Shown one piece after another: positions 29,649-36,159 of a DNA stretch of 36,742 nt. The number at the start of each line of letters is the position of its first letter. The stretch's first letter is position 1. The notes beneath the pieces were generated by a model. The model was not told the origin of the DNA. It was given only the letters and a program-made list of their open reading frames with translations, and ran no database searches. The position numbers and the translations under genes are program-made. This DNA comes from Halodesulfovibrio sp. (GTDB lineage: Bacteria > Desulfobacterota > Desulfovibrionia > Desulfovibrionales > Desulfovibrionaceae): positions 1 through 36,742 of the forward strand of contig NZ_JADMLB010000063.1 in NCBI RefSeq assembly GCF_015482765.1, read 5' to 3'.

Positions 29649-32600
29649 ATGTCGAAAAAGCCAGCAGATGATGCCAATAACCCTACATGGTATAAGGATG
29701 CAATCATATATGAATTGCATATTAAGTCGTTTAACGATTCCACAGGAAGCGGGAAAGGGGACATCGTAGGCGTTATTGAAAAGCTTGATTACTTACAGGA
29801 TCTCGGGATTACCGCAATCTGGCTTTTACCTTTCTTCCCATCGCCTTTAAGAGATGACGGCTACGATATACAGGATTACATGAATGTGAATCCTGATTAC
29901 GGAACCATTCAGGATATACGTAGGCTTATTCGTGAAGCGCACAAGCGTGGTTTACGTGTGATTATTGAACTTGTTCTGAATCACACTTCAGATCAGCATG
30001 AATGGTTCAAGCGTGCTCGTCAGGCTCCGGCTGGCTCATCACATCGGAATTTTTATGTATGGAGTGACACTCCGGAAAAATATCAGGATGCGCGGATAAT
30101 TTTTAAAGATTTCGAGCCATCAAACTGGAGTTGGGACCCTGTTGCCAATGCCTATTACTGGCATAGGTTTTATCATCATCAACCGGACTTGAACTATGAA
30201 AATCCTCAGGTACATAAAGCTGTATTCAAGGTCTTTGATTTTTGGTTTAAAATGGGGGTTGATGGCGTTCGGTTAGATGCTGTTCCGTACTTGTACGAAG
30301 AAGAAGGTACAAACTGCGAAAATCTTCCAAAGACATTTTCTTTTCTAAAAAAGCTTCGGGCGCGTCTTGACCTGAAATATGAGGGACGGATGCTGCTTGC
30401 AGAGGCAAATCAGTGGCCTGAGGATGCTGCTGAATATTTCGGCGATGGCGATGCCTGCCATATGTCATTTCATTTCCCGTTGATGCCGCGAATGTTTATG
30501 GCTCTTGAAATGGAAGATCGATTTCCCATTGTGGATATTTTGGAGCAGACACCGGATATCCCTGAGAGCGCGCAGTGGGCTATTTTTTTACGAAATCATG
30601 ACGAGCTGACTCTAGAGATGGTGACGGATGAAGAGCGGGATTACATGTACAGGATGTATGCCCGTGATCCGAAGAGTCGAATTAATTTGGGTATCCGGCG
30701 CAGACTGGCTCCGTTGCTGGGTAACGATCGGCGCAAGATAGAGTTGATGAATGTATTGCTTTTTTCCATGCCCGGGACTCCCGTTCTTTATTACGGTGAT
30801 GAAATTTGCATGGGCGACAACTATTATCTTGGTGATCGGGATGGTGTTCGCACTCCTATGCAGTGGAGTGCGGATAGAAATGCAGGATTTTCACGCTCAA
30901 ATCCTCAAAGCCTATATCTTCCGGTTATTATAGATCCTGAATATCATTATGAAGCTGTGAATGTTGAAACAGCGCAAAGTAATAAATCATCACTTTTCTG
31001 GTGGATGAAAGGGATGATTGCAATGCGTAAAAAGCATCCAGCTTTTGCCCGCGGTGATGTAACCTTTCTCATGCCGGACAACCACAGAGTTCTTGCCTTT
31101 ATCCGCTCCTATCAGGATGAAAATGTTTTGATTGTCTGTAATCTATCTCGCTTTCCGCAAGCAGCTTCATTGGATTTGGCTGGCTTTGAAGGATGTGAAC
31201 CTATTGAACTTATGTCGCATACCAAGTTTCCCATGATTCGTACTGCGATGTATGACCTTACTTTGAACCCACATGGGTATTTTATGTTCAGACTGCATCG
31301 TAACGTTGCAGAAGAGGTTGCACGCTCGGAAGGTGTCCCTGTTGTGACGGCATCAACCACGGTTAACATGTTTGATGCAGAGTTCAGGCTCGGTCTTGAA
31401 AGTATTTTGCCGGCATATTTTATTCGCAGGAATAAGTTGTTGTCACCCACAGCCATATTGCGAGAAATTTCCATTCGTGAAGCACTTCCTTTTGGTAATG
31501 AAACCCAGCAGTGCTGGCTTCTTATTGTAGAAGTACGCTTTATGCAGCAGCCCCCAGAGTTATATACGTTGTTTGTGAGCAGGGTAGAAGGAAAGGATGC
31601 TACAGATGTGGTAACAGCACGGACACCGGAGTTGATATGTACCATTGAAGGCGGAGGTGAACCCGCAGCGCTTGTAGAAGGTTTTATAGAAGGGTGGAGC
31701 TGTGCTTCTTTCATCAATTTGTACAAGCAGGTAAAAACTGTTTCAGGTAGAAACGGTATTTTCTCTGTTCTGCAAGACAGGCGCAGGCTTCCTGTTTTTA
31801 AAGAATGTTTTGGCTGGTGGAAAGAGTATCCGGAATCAAGTGCTGTGGTTTGCGGTGATGATTTGTTTTTTAGAATGTATCGGAGGCTGAGTGACGGAAT
31901 AAATCCTGATGCTGAAATGTTGGAGCATCTATCAGTCCGATGCGGCTTTCCAAACGTTCCCCGTTTTTTTGGTGCTGTGAAGTATAAAGGAAGTCAGGGA
32001 AATGAGCACTATATAGGAGCATATAGTCAGTATACGCATGGTGAATCTGATGTGCAGCAGATGGTGGTCGATAGTGTAACGAGGTTTTATGAAGGCCGCC
32101 TTGCTATCGATACAAGGATTGAAAAAGCTCCTGAAGAATTGGATGGTGATGTTTTTGAAATTGCCTTTGAGCGGCCTGCCATAAATAATGCGGAAGTGCT
32201 GACAGAGCCTGATGTTACGGTATTTACGCTTCTTGGAAAGCGACTGGGAGAAATGCATCTTGCTTTGGGAAGAAGCGGTACCAGCAAAGATTTTGCACCG
32301 GAGGCGTACTCAAAGCTATATGCCCGTTCTGTGTATCAAAGTGTGCAAAGTGTTGTGAAACGAACAATAGACAGGCTGCATAGAAAGCGTGGTGAGTTGG
32401 ACAGCAGCGTAATTCCTTATGTTGATGATGTCGTAGCCAGCAAGCAAAAACTGTTGGGAGATGCAAAAGAGTTCCTTGACCATAAATACAGTTGTCAAAA
32501 AATACGGTTGCATGGAAATTTATACCTTCGAAGGATTTTTTACACAGGTAAGGATTTCTTGTTTGTTAATTTTGAAGGGCAGAAGCATAAATCGTTTACT

Positions 32601-32981
32601 GCTCGCAGGTTGAAGGACAGTAGTTTGCGTGATGTGGTGGATGTACTTGATTCATTACAGTACACCGCATTGCATGTCCTTGAGCGTGCTTCGTTTATTC
32701 GTCCTGAAGATAAGGATAATTTAGAACTTTGGGCAGAAGTCTGGCGGCGAAACGCAGGTGGAGTCTTGCTGCGTAGCTATGCAGAAACAGTACAGGGAAG
32801 CAAACTGTTACCCAAAGATGCTGATGCGTTTCGATGCATGCTGGATGTTTTTTGTGTGCAGCGCAAGTTTGTTGATCTTCGGCAGTTTGAAAACATGGAA
32901 CCTGAAGAGCTTACGATAATTTTAAAAAGTATTCTGAATATTCATTGTCCTCAATCCGCAAAAGCTTGCAAAAGAACCTGA
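29649..32981 (+). CDS. treS: Trehalose synthase (TreS) fused to a degenerate maltokinase-like domain
   Basis: The 1110-residue protein has two parts. Residues 1-550 are a GH13 trehalose synthase that interconverts maltose and trehalose: YKDAIIYELHIKSFNDS, the nucleophile D210 (GVRLDAVPYL), the acid/base E252 (LLAEANQWP) and D318 (LRNHDELT) are all intact. From about 560 to 1105 the chain follows the maltokinase fold found in TreS-Mak fusions. The kinase core, normally HGDLHLGQ and DFEG, reads HGNLYLRR (H955 to R962) and NFEG (N974). The catalytic Asp, the metal ligands and neighbouring residues are thus replaced, so the kinase is probably inactive. The protein likely acts in compatible-solute metabolism. 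It is a single gene with its own terminator; no glgE or glgB adjoins. Confidence 0.92.
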   Translation: MSKKPADDANNPTWYKDAIIYELHIKSFNDSTGSGKGDIVGVIEKLDYLQDLGITAIWLLPFFPSPLRDDGYDIQDYMNVNPDYGTIQDIRRLIREAHKRGLRVIIELVLNHTSDQHEWFKRARQAPAGSSHRNFYVWSDTPEKYQDARIIFKDFEPSNWSWDPVANAYYWHRFYHHQPDLNYENPQVHKAVFKVFDFWFKMGVDGVRLDAVPYLYEEEGTNCENLPKTFSFLKKLRARLDLKYEGRMLLAEANQWPEDAAEYFGDGDACHMSFHFPLMPRMFMALEMEDRFPIVDILEQTPDIPESAQWAIFLRNHDELTLEMVTDEERDYMYRMYARDPKSRINLGIRRRLAPLLGNDRRKIELMNVLLFSMPGTPVLYYGDEICMGDNYYLGDRDGVRTPMQWSADRNAGFSRSNPQSLYLPVIIDPEYHYEAVNVETAQSNKSSLFWWMKGMIAMRKKHPAFARGDVTFLMPDNHRVLAFIRSYQDENVLIVCNLSRFPQAASLDLAGFEGCEPIELMSHTKFPMIRTAMYDLTLNPHGYFMFRLHRNVAEEVARSEGVPVVTASTTVNMFDAEFRLGLESILPAYFIRRNKLLSPTAILREISIREALPFGNETQQCWLLIVEVRFMQQPPELYTLFVSRVEGKDATDVVTARTPELICTIEGGGEPAALVEGFIEGWSCASFINLYKQVKTVSGRNGIFSVLQDRRRLPVFKECFGWWKEYPESSAVVCGDDLFFRMYRRLSDGINPDAEMLEHLSVRCGFPNVPRFFGAVKYKGSQGNEHYIGAYSQYTHGESDVQQMVVDSVTRFYEGRLAIDTRIEKAPEELDGDVFEIAFERPAINNAEVLTEPDVTVFTLLGKRLGEMHLALGRSGTSKDFAPEAYSKLYARSVYQSVQSVVKRTIDRLHRKRGELDSSVIPYVDDVVASKQKLLGDAKEFLDHKYSCQKIRLHGNLYLRRIFYTGKDFLFVNFEGQKHKSFTARRLKDSSLRDVVDVLDSLQYTALHVLERASFIRPEDKDNLELWAEVWRRNAGGVLLRSYAETVQGSKLLPKDADAFRCMLDVFCVQRKFVDLRQFENMEPEELTIILKSILNIHCPQSAKACKRT

Positions 32982-33035: not shown

Positions 33036-33150
33036 ATTGGAATAAATTTTGCAAATTTTCCTATAGTAAGGTGTATCCGGAAAAAAGTGTCATTTTCTTG
33101 AATGATCTTTGCCGGAACCTAGTGGAAAGCGGAAAATTGCCGATTGTTAC

Positions 33151-33513
33151 TTAGGCAAAAATTTCTTCTTTTGTTACTGCTTCAGATTTAATTCTGTCGA
33201 GCAGCTCCGCAAGAGTGGCTTTTACGTTTTCTCGGATATCGCCTGCAACAATGAGGTACATTACATCGTCACCGGGAGTGAAGTCGCCTTCATATGCCTC
33301 GGTAATGATGCGGTAAATACCTTCATTTTGTTCAAGTTCTTTACGGATACTTTCAATTTTATCGTAGTCATGACGGACACGGATTGCTTTAACTTCTCGT
33401 CGGTCTTTGCGAGACCAGCCGCGTACTGTTCCGTTATGAATAAGTGTCATGCCGACATTTTCGGCAAAACCCGGGTCTTTTTTCAGTTCAGCCAGAGTTC
33501 TGGTAATGTCCAT
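33151..33513 (-). CDS. MoaE-like molybdopterin synthase catalytic subunit (divergent)
   Basis: The 120-residue product (start at 33511-33513, with GGGAGGA just upstream on the minus strand) has the MoaE layout: VGMTLIHNGTVRGWSRKD in the N-terminal part with the conserved Arg pair, GDDVMYLIVAGDIRENVKATLAELLDRIK in the core, and a C-terminus with two lysines K109 and K115. In E. coli MoaE the active lysines are 7 apart (119 and 126); here they are 6 apart and the Trp before the second is Thr. MoaE puts the two sulfurs on the molybdopterin precursor. No other molybdenum cofactor genes adjoin. The assignment is likely, with some chance that this is a related non-catalytic protein. Confidence 0.75.
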   Translation of the reverse strand: MDITRTLAELKKDPGFAENVGMTLIHNGTVRGWSRKDRREVKAIRVRHDYDKIESIRKELEQNEGIYRIITEAYEGDFTPGDDVMYLIVAGDIRENVKATLAELLDRIKSEAVTKEEIFA

Positions 33514-33546
33514 AAGTCCTCCCAAAAGTAATGGTGAAAGGTAGAT

Positions 33547-36159
33547 ATGCCTCATTTATCAAACTTGCTCAACAAACTTCCTATGTTTCAGGAATCGCGC
33601 ATGGTGGCTACCGGCTACGGCATGTGGGTTAGTTGGAACGGTGAACTTAATCCGGCAGTAGTGCAGACCTTGCAGGACTACGGTGGGTTACAGGTAGGTG
33701 TTGATAGAGATCAAGCCCTGTGGTTTTTCTTTAGCTCAGACGCGTTTCTGGCTGCTGCCAGATTGAGCGTGTGGGCAAAGTTTAATTCTCTTCAGTTATA
33801 TGCACAATTGCTTCCTGCAAAATTGCTTTTCAGTCCGAAACGGGAAATTTCATTTTCTGTAGAACCTGCACTTATGGCGCAATCCGTTATTGTTCCGGAC
33901 AGCTGCCAAATCCTTGTCCATCCAAAGTGTCGGAATGAAGGAAGGGGGCTTCCGGGGCTTACGTTTAAGCCGGAAGGCTCTCGTTCTGGTTTAGCTCCTG
34001 TTGAATGGACATCTCTTATGGTTGACCCGCGGCTTCCGTATCAGTCTTCGTTAGGCTGGTATGGCGTAATTAAGCCATTGGGTAATTCCATGGAGAAAAA
34101 TTTTCTCGAAAGTTGGCGTAGCTATGCTTCAGAGGTTAAAACCTTATTTGAAAAGCTTAAGATTAAATTTCTTGTTCAGGATAGTTACTTAGTTTTTCAA
34201 CTCGAAAACCTGCAGATGCTCAGGCAGTGGACGCGCGAACATCTTTTGCTGGTAGATAAGCTGAAAAGCACGAAGCGGGAAGTTTACTGGCCTGCGGTTG
34301 TTGCTGTGACCAACAAACGCGGTTTAAACTTTACGCCGGATCTTCCTAAAAAGATGGCGTTGGATTGGAACCAGCTTGTTCCGGATTTCCCTCATATGAG
34401 TTTTCGATCCGGTTACTTACTTGGCCGTTCATTTGAAGTGCATGATGTTAACTTTTCGTTAGATGCCAGCAGCGTGGATGACTGGTGTAAAGTCACGTTG
34501 ACTGTTGATCACTCAGAAGAAAGCGGTATTTTGCCTGTTCAAGTTTCAAAGCACCTTGTCGCAGGCAACCATGATCATTGCTTTTATTGTGGGATGCGTT
34601 CACATGCTTCGCATGAATGCCCAACTCGATCACTTTCTAAGTTAGCCCCAAAAGTTTGGCATGAGCTTTCTAAGTTAAATTTTGAAGAATTTAATAACGG
34701 GTTCGAAGAGATTGAGTCCAAACTTGGTAAAGATGATGTAGAAGCGTTGAAGCTGATTCAAACGTCCAAAGGGCATGATGGTGTTTTGCTTAACGCTGTA
34801 TACGGAGTAAACCAAATTTCTCAACTCCGAATGATGCAACATTTGTGGGTTTGCCGCGGGAAAGATTTTGCAAAAGGTTTAGATGAAGTTGTTCCTCGCG
34901 ATGACAACCCTGTATGGAGCGCGCTGTCGTACGTTCTTTCAGGTGATTTGCAGGTGGCAGACAGAGAGTTGGCAAACTTGGCAATTCGGGCACCGCGTGA
35001 TGCCCGCCCGCGAATGCTGGCAGGTTTTGTAGCTATGGAGCGTGGTGATTATCACAAAGCCATGATGATGTGGAAAGAAGCGGAAATTCTTTCCGGCCCT
35101 ATGATGAAGCAAGCGTACTGCGTGTTTTTACAGGCACGTTTGCTGGAGTACACTGCACAGTATCAACAGGCTTCTGATTTATATAGCCGTGTGTTGCGCA
35201 TGTGCCCGACGCTGCAGGACGCTCAATATCGCAAGTCTGTTTGTCAGGTCAAAATTGGTTTTGCTGAACAGGCAATGTCATCGTTGATTGCTCTTGTTGA
35301 AAAAACTCCGCATTACTTTAACCGTGTATTAATCGATCCAGAAATGGAGCGAGGACATATTCAGGTTCTTTCTGCACTATATGCACCATGGATAGAGGCT
35401 GAAAGTCAGGTTGAAAAAGCTGTCGAGGCTCTCGAAGGACTCAAAAAAGAAGTTCATGAGTGGTTCGATGAAAGTGATCCATTTTTTGTCAAAAGCATGA
35501 AGCGAATAGAGCAGATGACCGCCGCCACAGATATAAAGAACTATGTTTCGTTTATGTTGATTTTGCATGGCTGCAAAAATCTGACAAAAGATCTGGATAG
35601 ATATATCACGAAAGAGGCTTCGGAGCTGAAGAAGAAATTTCAGGACCAACGTGAACGCTTGCATTATATCCGTGAGGAAGCAGCTTGGTTCCCATTCCCG
35701 CGTGCTCTTGTTGAGTTTAATAAAAACTACAATGTATGTGCGGCAAATATTAAATGGGCATTAAAAACACATTTTCAGGTTGCTGACATCTTTAAAAAAG
35801 CACAGGCCGTAGCTGAAACTGAAGCAAAACGTCTTGAGAAGCTTGAAAAGCGATTGAAATTTTTAAAAGTTGTTCGTGATTCTACATTGTTTATGTTGAT
35901 AATGGCACGCACATTCTTTTGGGTTGAAGTCGCCTTTATGTGTATTGTTGTTGTAGCCTTACCGCTTTCGATGTTCTATGGAGAGCAATCGGGAATGGAG
36001 TGGGCTACCGGACTTTTGTTTAAGGAAAAGTGGGACATCCAAAAGCAGTTGATTCTAGGATTTTCAATTTTTGCGATTATCGTCTCGTGTTTCCGAACTG
36101 TCATTGTCTTCGATAAAGTTCGTGAAAAGTACTTTAATAAGGCTCGAGGGCTAGCTTGA
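33547..36159 (+). CDS. Large protein with CCHC zinc knuckle, TPR repeats and C-terminal membrane segments, function unknown
   Basis: I do not recognise a named family. The 870-residue product starts at ATG 33547 after GAAAGG, 33 bases from the divergent moaE-like gene. Residues 1-340 are a globular part with no motif I know. C345, C348, H353 and C358 form a CX2CX4HX4C zinc knuckle, rare in bacteria. Residues about 440-600 look like TPR helices (ARPRMLAGFVAMERGDYHKA, LEYTAQYQQASDLYSRVLRM). Residues about 620-780 are helical and charged, probably coiled coil. The C-terminus has two membrane segments (about 785-815 and 835-860). No signal peptide is seen, so most of the protein should face the cytoplasm. 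A scaffold or nucleic-acid-binding role is possible but unproven. Confidence 0.85.
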   Translation: MPHLSNLLNKLPMFQESRMVATGYGMWVSWNGELNPAVVQTLQDYGGLQVGVDRDQALWFFFSSDAFLAAARLSVWAKFNSLQLYAQLLPAKLLFSPKREISFSVEPALMAQSVIVPDSCQILVHPKCRNEGRGLPGLTFKPEGSRSGLAPVEWTSLMVDPRLPYQSSLGWYGVIKPLGNSMEKNFLESWRSYASEVKTLFEKLKIKFLVQDSYLVFQLENLQMLRQWTREHLLLVDKLKSTKREVYWPAVVAVTNKRGLNFTPDLPKKMALDWNQLVPDFPHMSFRSGYLLGRSFEVHDVNFSLDASSVDDWCKVTLTVDHSEESGILPVQVSKHLVAGNHDHCFYCGMRSHASHECPTRSLSKLAPKVWHELSKLNFEEFNNGFEEIESKLGKDDVEALKLIQTSKGHDGVLLNAVYGVNQISQLRMMQHLWVCRGKDFAKGLDEVVPRDDNPVWSALSYVLSGDLQVADRELANLAIRAPRDARPRMLAGFVAMERGDYHKAMMMWKEAEILSGPMMKQAYCVFLQARLLEYTAQYQQASDLYSRVLRMCPTLQDAQYRKSVCQVKIGFAEQAMSSLIALVEKTPHYFNRVLIDPEMERGHIQVLSALYAPWIEAESQVEKAVEALEGLKKEVHEWFDESDPFFVKSMKRIEQMTAATDIKNYVSFMLILHGCKNLTKDLDRYITKEASELKKKFQDQRERLHYIREEAAWFPFPRALVEFNKNYNVCAANIKWALKTHFQVADIFKKAQAVAETEAKRLEKLEKRLKFLKVVRDSTLFMLIMARTFFWVEVAFMCIVVVALPLSMFYGEQSGMEWATGLLFKEKWDIQKQLILGFSIFAIIVSCFRTVIVFDKVREKYFNKARGLA

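Follow-up and report, generated by a model that had tools for sequence, protein, structure and literature searches.

Bifunctional fusions of trehalose synthase with maltokinase (TreS-Mak, or TreS-Pep2) have been described in Estrella lausannensis and Pseudomonas aeruginosa, where they make maltose 1-phosphate (M1P) and act together with GlgE (PMC7935935, PMC11046441). We examined a stretch of 36,742 nucleotides from the marine sulfate-reducing bacterium Halodesulfovibrio sp. (the window; contig NZ_JADMLB010000063.1 of assembly GCF_015482765.1), in which an initial annotation, made from the sequence without database searches, had placed such a fusion at 29649-32981 and suggested that its kinase domain has lost its catalytic residues. 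The open reading frame (ORF) and its coordinates proved exact, and the two halves match the TIGR02456 and TIGR02457 profiles. The domain order is the same as in the E. lausannensis and P. aeruginosa fusions, but unlike those proteins this one has its kinase residues replaced, and a search of the Halodesulfovibrio genome found no GlgE. Both halves align with intact fusions of the host phylum, while the E. lausannensis and P. aeruginosa proteins were compared by description. The account that we consider probable from the sequence is that TreS, predicted to be active, carries a docked but dead Mak half that would make no M1P and that has been retained for docking. The features concerned are as follows.

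29649..32981, forward strand: whole gene, TreS plus degenerate maltokinase half, 1110 amino acids (ORF, profile matches, orthologues)
29649..31298, forward strand: TreS (GH13) half, residues 1-550, predicted active (TIGR02456, 883 bits; 5x7u, 838 bits; three acids kept)
30276..30278, forward strand: GH13 acid D210 (alignment, residue reading)
30402..30404, forward strand: GH13 acid E252 (alignment, residue reading)
30600..30602, forward strand: GH13 third acid D318 (alignment, residue reading)
31371..32948, forward strand: pseudo-maltokinase half, residues 575-1100 (TIGR02457 match below cut-off; Mak PDB matches)
31833..31835, forward strand: E729 at the place of the P-loop Ser, Ser136 of M. 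vanbaalenii Mak (counted back from aligned block; E in 6/6 Halodesulfovibrio)
31872..31874, forward strand: R742 at the place of the phosphate-binding Lys, Lys149 (aligned directly; R in 6/6, five different codons)
32517..32519, forward strand: N957 at the place of the catalytic base, Asp305 (aligned; N in 5/6 species, S in 1/6)
32532..32534, forward strand: R962 at the place of a Mg ligand, Gln310 (aligned; R in 6/6)
32568..32570, forward strand: N974 at the place of a Mg ligand, Asp322 (aligned; N in 6/6)
32862..32885, forward strand: former maltose-binding Lys413/Tyr416/Tyr420, here R1072, V1075 and Q1079 (mapping inferred from spacing and alignment to intact fusions)

Residues 14-549 match TIGR02456 (TreS) with 883.3 bits against a curated cut-off of 678.35, and the best PDB sequence match of this half is the TreS entry 5x7u. 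The three GH13 acids are kept, as the initial annotation had read them: D210, which we take to be the nucleophile, E252, presumably the general acid, and D318. With Asp, Glu and Asp all present, this half is predicted to interconvert trehalose and maltose. The match of residues 575-1097 to TIGR02457 (putative maltokinase), at 232 bits, lies below the curated cut-off of 375.05; the Mak homology of this half is nonetheless clear from alignment to PDB sequences, where the maltokinases 5jy7, 4u94 and 4o7o are the sole better-than-chance matches.

Alignment to Mak of 5jy7 and 4u94 sets HGNLYLRR (955-962) on HGDLHLGQ and NFEG on DFEG, and the earlier readings of HGNLYLRR and of VNFEG with N974 were exact. 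Lys149 and positions 303-343 of the solved Mak are aligned directly, Ser136 was counted back from them, and positions 413, 416 and 420 were mapped as noted in the list. In M. vanbaalenii Mak, Asp305 is the putative base, Gln310 and Asp322 bind Mg, the P-loop Ser136 meets the gamma phosphate, and Lys413, Tyr416 and Tyr420 serve maltose (PMC4306142); Lys149 holds a phosphate (PMC4306142; PMC11046441). The D339N variant of M. tuberculosis Mak, at the Asp322 equivalent and with the same change as N974, has no activity, a Ser136 mutant loses 97% of its activity, and mutants of Lys413, Tyr416 and Tyr420 are practically inactive (PMC4306142). The losses listed in the initial annotation are thus real, but the damage was understated, as R742, E729 and the broken Lys/Tyr/Tyr triad belong to it as well. 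Judged by these residues, the kinase half is almost certainly a pseudokinase.

It is hardly credible that this half is a working kinase by virtue of other residues or with a different substrate, since the base, both metal ligands and the phosphate-binding Lys are all replaced. The initial annotation had allowed that other residues might supply the catalytic Asp; a nearby candidate, D969 of TGKDF, is also found in intact kinases and is no special substitute in this protein. What speaks for continued kinase activity comes from elsewhere in the host class, where in 17 of 47 GlgE-less genomes the maltose triad is lost and the catalytic triad (Asp, Gln or Asn, Asp) remains; those kinases could phosphorylate some new substrate, an argument inapplicable to the present protein.

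Orthologues of this treS gene occur in five of nine other genomes of the same genus, at 83-85% identity (84% in Halodesulfovibrio spirochaetisodalis), and are absent from the remaining four. All five orthologues carry HG(N/S)L(Y/H)LRR and VNFEG, one of them having Ser for Asn957 and His for Tyr959. The initial annotation had proposed looking for the substitutions in relatives, and the five catalytic positions, at the places of E729, R742, N957, R962 and N974, are indeed altered in all six TreS-bearing Halodesulfovibrio species. The maltose triad fares differently, with Lys kept in three of the six, Tyr420 in one and Tyr416 in none. An intact ORF common to six species excludes sequencing error or a pseudogene. 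Identity among the Halodesulfovibrio species is 74-86% in the kinase half and 89-95% in the TreS half; the corresponding figures for seven species of another genus, g30, whose kinase halves are intact, are 73-96% and 90-99%. Nonsynonymous differences per site (pN) in the Halodesulfovibrio kinase half are 0.08-0.16 against synonymous ones (pS) of 0.71-0.84; raw pN and pS were used because the corresponding rate ratio, dN/dS, was mostly not computable within the genus, synonymous sites being near saturation. These comparisons support purifying selection on the kinase half, with an amino-acid constraint within the range of its intact g30 relatives, and the description of a full-length, in-frame pseudokinase holds.

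The replaced residues themselves are steady. R742 is encoded by AGA, CGG, CGT, CGC, AGG and CGG across the six species, N974 by AAT or AAC, and R962 by AGG or AGA, while E729 has a single codon in all six; the Tyr416 place holds V, N, I, M, S and I. Conservation in the kinase half peaks at residues 726-750 and 951-975, where 84% of columns are identical in the six. This evidence bears on the alternative that the half is a decaying leftover, without function and kept by its in-frame fusion to a useful TreS, which misfolding would harm. Such decay agrees with the drift of the maltose segment in Halodesulfovibrio, with the retention there of just 57% of the alignment columns that do not vary among intact kinases, and with the TreS gene of genome G324 (L178:1390-3312, reverse strand), which encodes 640 amino acids and stops just past the TreS part, the kinase half being gone; other readable members of its genus, g25, have degenerate kinase halves. 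It agrees poorly with a constraint like that of intact relatives, with R742, R962 and N974 remaining identical in six of six despite codon variation (as does E729, with its one codon), and with the location of the two best conserved stretches, and we consider it improbable.

Where the half is conserved also suggests what it might be kept for. We compared the six Halodesulfovibrio sequences with six intact g30 sequences, for which the TreS baseline of conservation is similar (0.83 and 0.86, respectively). The P-loop region scores 0.84 in Halodesulfovibrio vs 0.73 in the intact set, the catalytic-loop region 0.80 vs 0.94, the maltose helix 0.41 vs 0.94, and the rest of the kinase half 0.55 vs 0.60. 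A second pseudokinase group, g49/g41, has Glu for Asp305; its six sequences, set against intact ones of like divergence, score 0.32 vs 0.62 in the maltose helix and 0.80 vs 0.72 in the catalytic loop. Maltose sensing through the canonical site, one of the purposes suggested in the initial annotation, is unlikely given so weakly conserved a segment (41% of columns identical vs 94% in intact g30), and a role in docking or allostery, placed at the former ATP site, is the better fit. In the crystal structure of the mycobacterial TreS:Pep2 complex the nucleotide site adjoins the interface and has elements in common with it, and the maltose pocket does not touch TreS directly (PMC6509496).

The same conserved site could instead be a sensor, in which the remodelled ATP site binds a nucleotide or other anion without Mg and tunes TreS allosterically. 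In its favor, both a Mg ligand, Gln, and the phosphate-binding Lys have been exchanged for Arg in a conserved site, and ATP affects the TreS activity of the intact E. lausannensis fusion, which is unchanged at 1 mM, lower at 3-10 mM (from 0.43 to 0.29 units) and 2.8-fold lower at 20 mM (PMC7935935). That effect is explicable by metal chelation or salt, however, and Glu at the P-loop Ser place would push phosphate away or form pairs with the newly gained Arg residues, so that we give the sensor rather little credence.

Beyond this genus, kinase decay can be compared with the presence of GlgE. TIGR02457 matches were obtained in 63 of 348 genomes of the host class and in 44 further genomes of a phylum sample of 395; GlgE (PF11896 above its cut-off) is present in 14 of the 63 and in 31 of the 44. 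The kinase core was readable in 99 genomes (61 in the class and 38 outside it; 106 sequences), in which we scored Asp305, Gln310, Asp322, Lys413, Tyr416 and Tyr420, taking the best copy per genome. The counts leave out G093 and G659 (contig ends before the core), G147 (weak match, no fusion found), G454, G504, G516, G532 and G688 (partial or weak matches), and G324 (no kinase half). By PF11896 scoring, all six residues are intact in 44 of 44 genomes with GlgE and in 7 of 55 without. A full-length GlgE query was run over 59 genomes (48 GlgE-less genomes of the class, G324 included, 8 outside it, and 3 GlgE-bearing controls) and revealed a piece of GlgE at a contig end in G438, counted as GlgE-less by PF11896; after recoding, the six residues are intact in all 45 genomes that have GlgE and in 6 of the 54 that lack it. 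In the class genomes scored GlgE-less, this query had nothing beyond weak hits, which fell on the TreS genes of G000, G007 and G033. For the class alone, the six residues are intact in 14 of 14 genomes with GlgE and in 0 of 47 without. Models of correlated change, fitted on the gene tree to 92 of the 99 genomes with a single copy from each (G438 was still miscoded as GlgE-less, and some rates ended at their bounds), gave likelihood ratios of 35.8 (p 3e-7) for the six residues vs GlgE and 32.4 (p 2e-6) for the maltose triad vs GlgE. Kinase decay tracks GlgE absence across the 99 genomes, and the Halodesulfovibrio gene is one case of a recurrent pattern and not an isolated oddity.

We built a FastTree tree of the TreS half (98 rows) and an IQ-TREE tree of 68 of those rows. 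Loss of the maltose triad is scattered on both trees, requiring 8 changes on the IQ-TREE tree, 5 of them forced by well supported branches; loss of Asp305 requires 7 changes there, although such counts are blind to loss vs gain. One ancestral loss for all was considered, and the approximately unbiased test, applied to the TreS half, rejects the grouping of all losses in one clade (p 2e-60). Kinase loss arose several times.

Three genomes, G019, G278 and G025, have GlgE together with two copies of the fusion each, one of which is a mirror image of the Halodesulfovibrio case. The copy beside glgE (L055, L093 and L048, respectively) has intact kinase residues and has lost the TreS general acid, its motif AEANQ reading TAANQ in two genomes and AQANQ in one (Glu to Ala or Gln). 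In the second copy it is the kinase half that has suffered: the maltose triad is gone, and in G025 Gln310 as well, with the TreS acids intact. G119 also has two copies, but the one near glgE is spread over two reading frames and retains the TreS acids, so it provides no mirror image. In G036, of another family, Asn stands at both Asp positions; its locus (L050:2399-12829) runs malQ, treS, glgB, treZ, with malQ overlapping the treS start, while the GlgE-bearing relative G045 (L057:5607-15085) has glgE, treS, glgB, treZ, with glgE where G036 has malQ. The second copy of G019 likewise adjoins malQ, and the copy of G033 adjoins otsA/otsB. Replacement of GlgE by malQ at the locus, as G036 might suggest, was rejected. 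In G038, G043 and G047 malQ is also found close to the fusion, although the fusion is intact and glgE is located elsewhere, so that proximity to malQ does not mark out pseudokinases.

A further group (G033, G325, G122, G219, G223, G326, G220 and G218) has HGDxxxxN with DFDG or DYDG, the maltose triad being replaced. We take its catalytic residues to resemble the aminoglycoside-kinase pattern, and it is possibly a kinase for another substrate.

Several observations weigh against the account of a dead, docked kinase half silenced on GlgE loss, beyond the eroded invariant columns and the truncated G324 gene mentioned above. The bulk of the contact in the TreS:Pep2 crystal comes from C-lobe helices (PMC6509496), and docking of the Halodesulfovibrio kinase half is something that we infer. 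A model of the kinase half, built from two sequences, was unusable (mean predicted local distance difference test score, pLDDT, 35.6). In g49/g41 the P-loop region shows no special conservation (0.54 vs 0.62 in the intact set). The 17 GlgE-less class genomes that keep the catalytic triad have lost the maltose site alone, and for them only that site argues for a loss of maltokinase activity. Outside the class, G496, G521, G592, G632, G695 and G705 have all six residues intact and no GlgE by PF11896 or by the GlgE protein query, possibly reflecting another M1P user or an assembly gap. Finally, a sign test on independent pairs went in the expected direction (3.1 vs 0) without significance (median p 0.25), the informative contrasts being too few.

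The Halodesulfovibrio genome, which is 99.97% complete, fits the association. The initial annotation had suggested looking for glgE: PF11896 has no match, and the full-length GlgE query reaches solely the TreS gene, at 20 bits. Nor was a second maltokinase found with TIGR02457. The idea that the protein would uncouple TreS from the GlgE pathway needs refining, since no GlgE pathway was found in this cell from which to be uncoupled. Adjacent glgA and glgB genes are present (glgC was outside the search), as are the GlgP family and MalQ, with malQ on a different contig from treS. OtsB matches TIGR00685 with 101 bits (cut-off 68), and the OtsA-like gene beside it scores 523 bits with TIGR02400 against a cut-off of 565, compared with 342 for glucosylglycerol-phosphate synthase. 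OtsA family genes (PF00982) co-occur with treS: all six Halodesulfovibrio genomes that bear TreS carry them, and the four TreS-less ones lack them (genomes G000-G009).

Lacking residues for Mg-ATP, for maltose deprotonation and for maltose binding, the protein would exchange trehalose and maltose and make no M1P. OtsA/OtsB would supply trehalose, TreS would interconvert it with maltose, and MalQ and GlgP would do likewise for maltose and glycogen, the exchange running without the ATP-driven pull of Mak. TreS equilibrium leans to trehalose, and a maltose kinase, where present, moves flux toward maltose (PMC11046441). M1P would be harmful with no GlgE to consume it, and loss of GlgE would then favor silencing of the fused kinase; GlgE inhibition kills through M1P (PMC4663749), and one E. 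coli strain made to express TreS-Mak formed no colonies, M1P toxicity being presumed (PMC7935935). The half would be kept since it docks on TreS, with the segments of the former nucleotide site conserved in altered form and the maltose pocket released from constraint. A more elaborate version, possible but doubtful, is that the former Mg-ATP cleft has been rebuilt as a metal-free charged site (E729, R742, R962, N974) that is itself under selection and controls TreS, either as a lock made of internal salt bridges where it meets TreS or by sensing an anion or a nucleotide. In its wider form, the two activities of the fusion would have been divided between the two copies in the three GlgE genomes, and after GlgE loss a TreS with a pseudokinase would remain.

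The gene order recA, ThiI-like gene, SNF-type transporter, treS, small ORF and TPR protein is identical in five of five relatives. The small ORF (33109-33531, forward strand), between treS and the TPR gene, keeps its place and is 61-71% identical in the five, unlike treS, the SNF transporter and the TPR gene, which are 83-97% identical; it has no match in Pfam. The gene at 33547-36159 (forward strand) encodes an 870-amino-acid protein with weak TPR matches; it adjoins treS in all five relatives at 84-90% identity.

It is easy to take a TreS-Mak fusion as a sign that trehalose feeds M1P synthesis, and this is doubtful for GlgE-less genomes of the class, where 47 of 47 readable cores lack at least one of the six key residues. 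One report lists a treS of another sulfate reducer as a maltose-to-trehalose enzyme (PMC6491731). We find the wider pattern of GlgE and kinase more interesting than the single gene: it amounts to a natural test of M1P as a dangerous intermediate, the producer being disarmed where the consumer has been lost, and fusions with only TreS or only Mak intact are natural separation-of-function variants that make a docking role of Mak directly testable. Among the literature matches listed, seen in part, none describes a pseudokinase fused to a trehalose enzyme, a negative that does not extend to the early overview of TreS-Pep2 fusions to which PMC6509496 refers, and no paper in the literature searched treats maltokinase together with pseudokinase or with Desulfovibrio.

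Among described systems, the mycobacterial TreS:Pep2 complex consists of homologous partners, but there they are separate chains in weak association and the kinase is active, whereas in Halodesulfovibrio the fusion is covalent and the kinase predicted dead. Stand-alone TreS (5x7u) is predicted to carry out the same reversible exchange of trehalose and maltose without a kinase-derived domain, a state that G324 represents inside the host class. Pseudokinases serving as scaffolds or allosteric partners are a known general class, and in these, as here, the catalytic Asp and the metal-binding Asp are replaced while the former ATP site is conserved.

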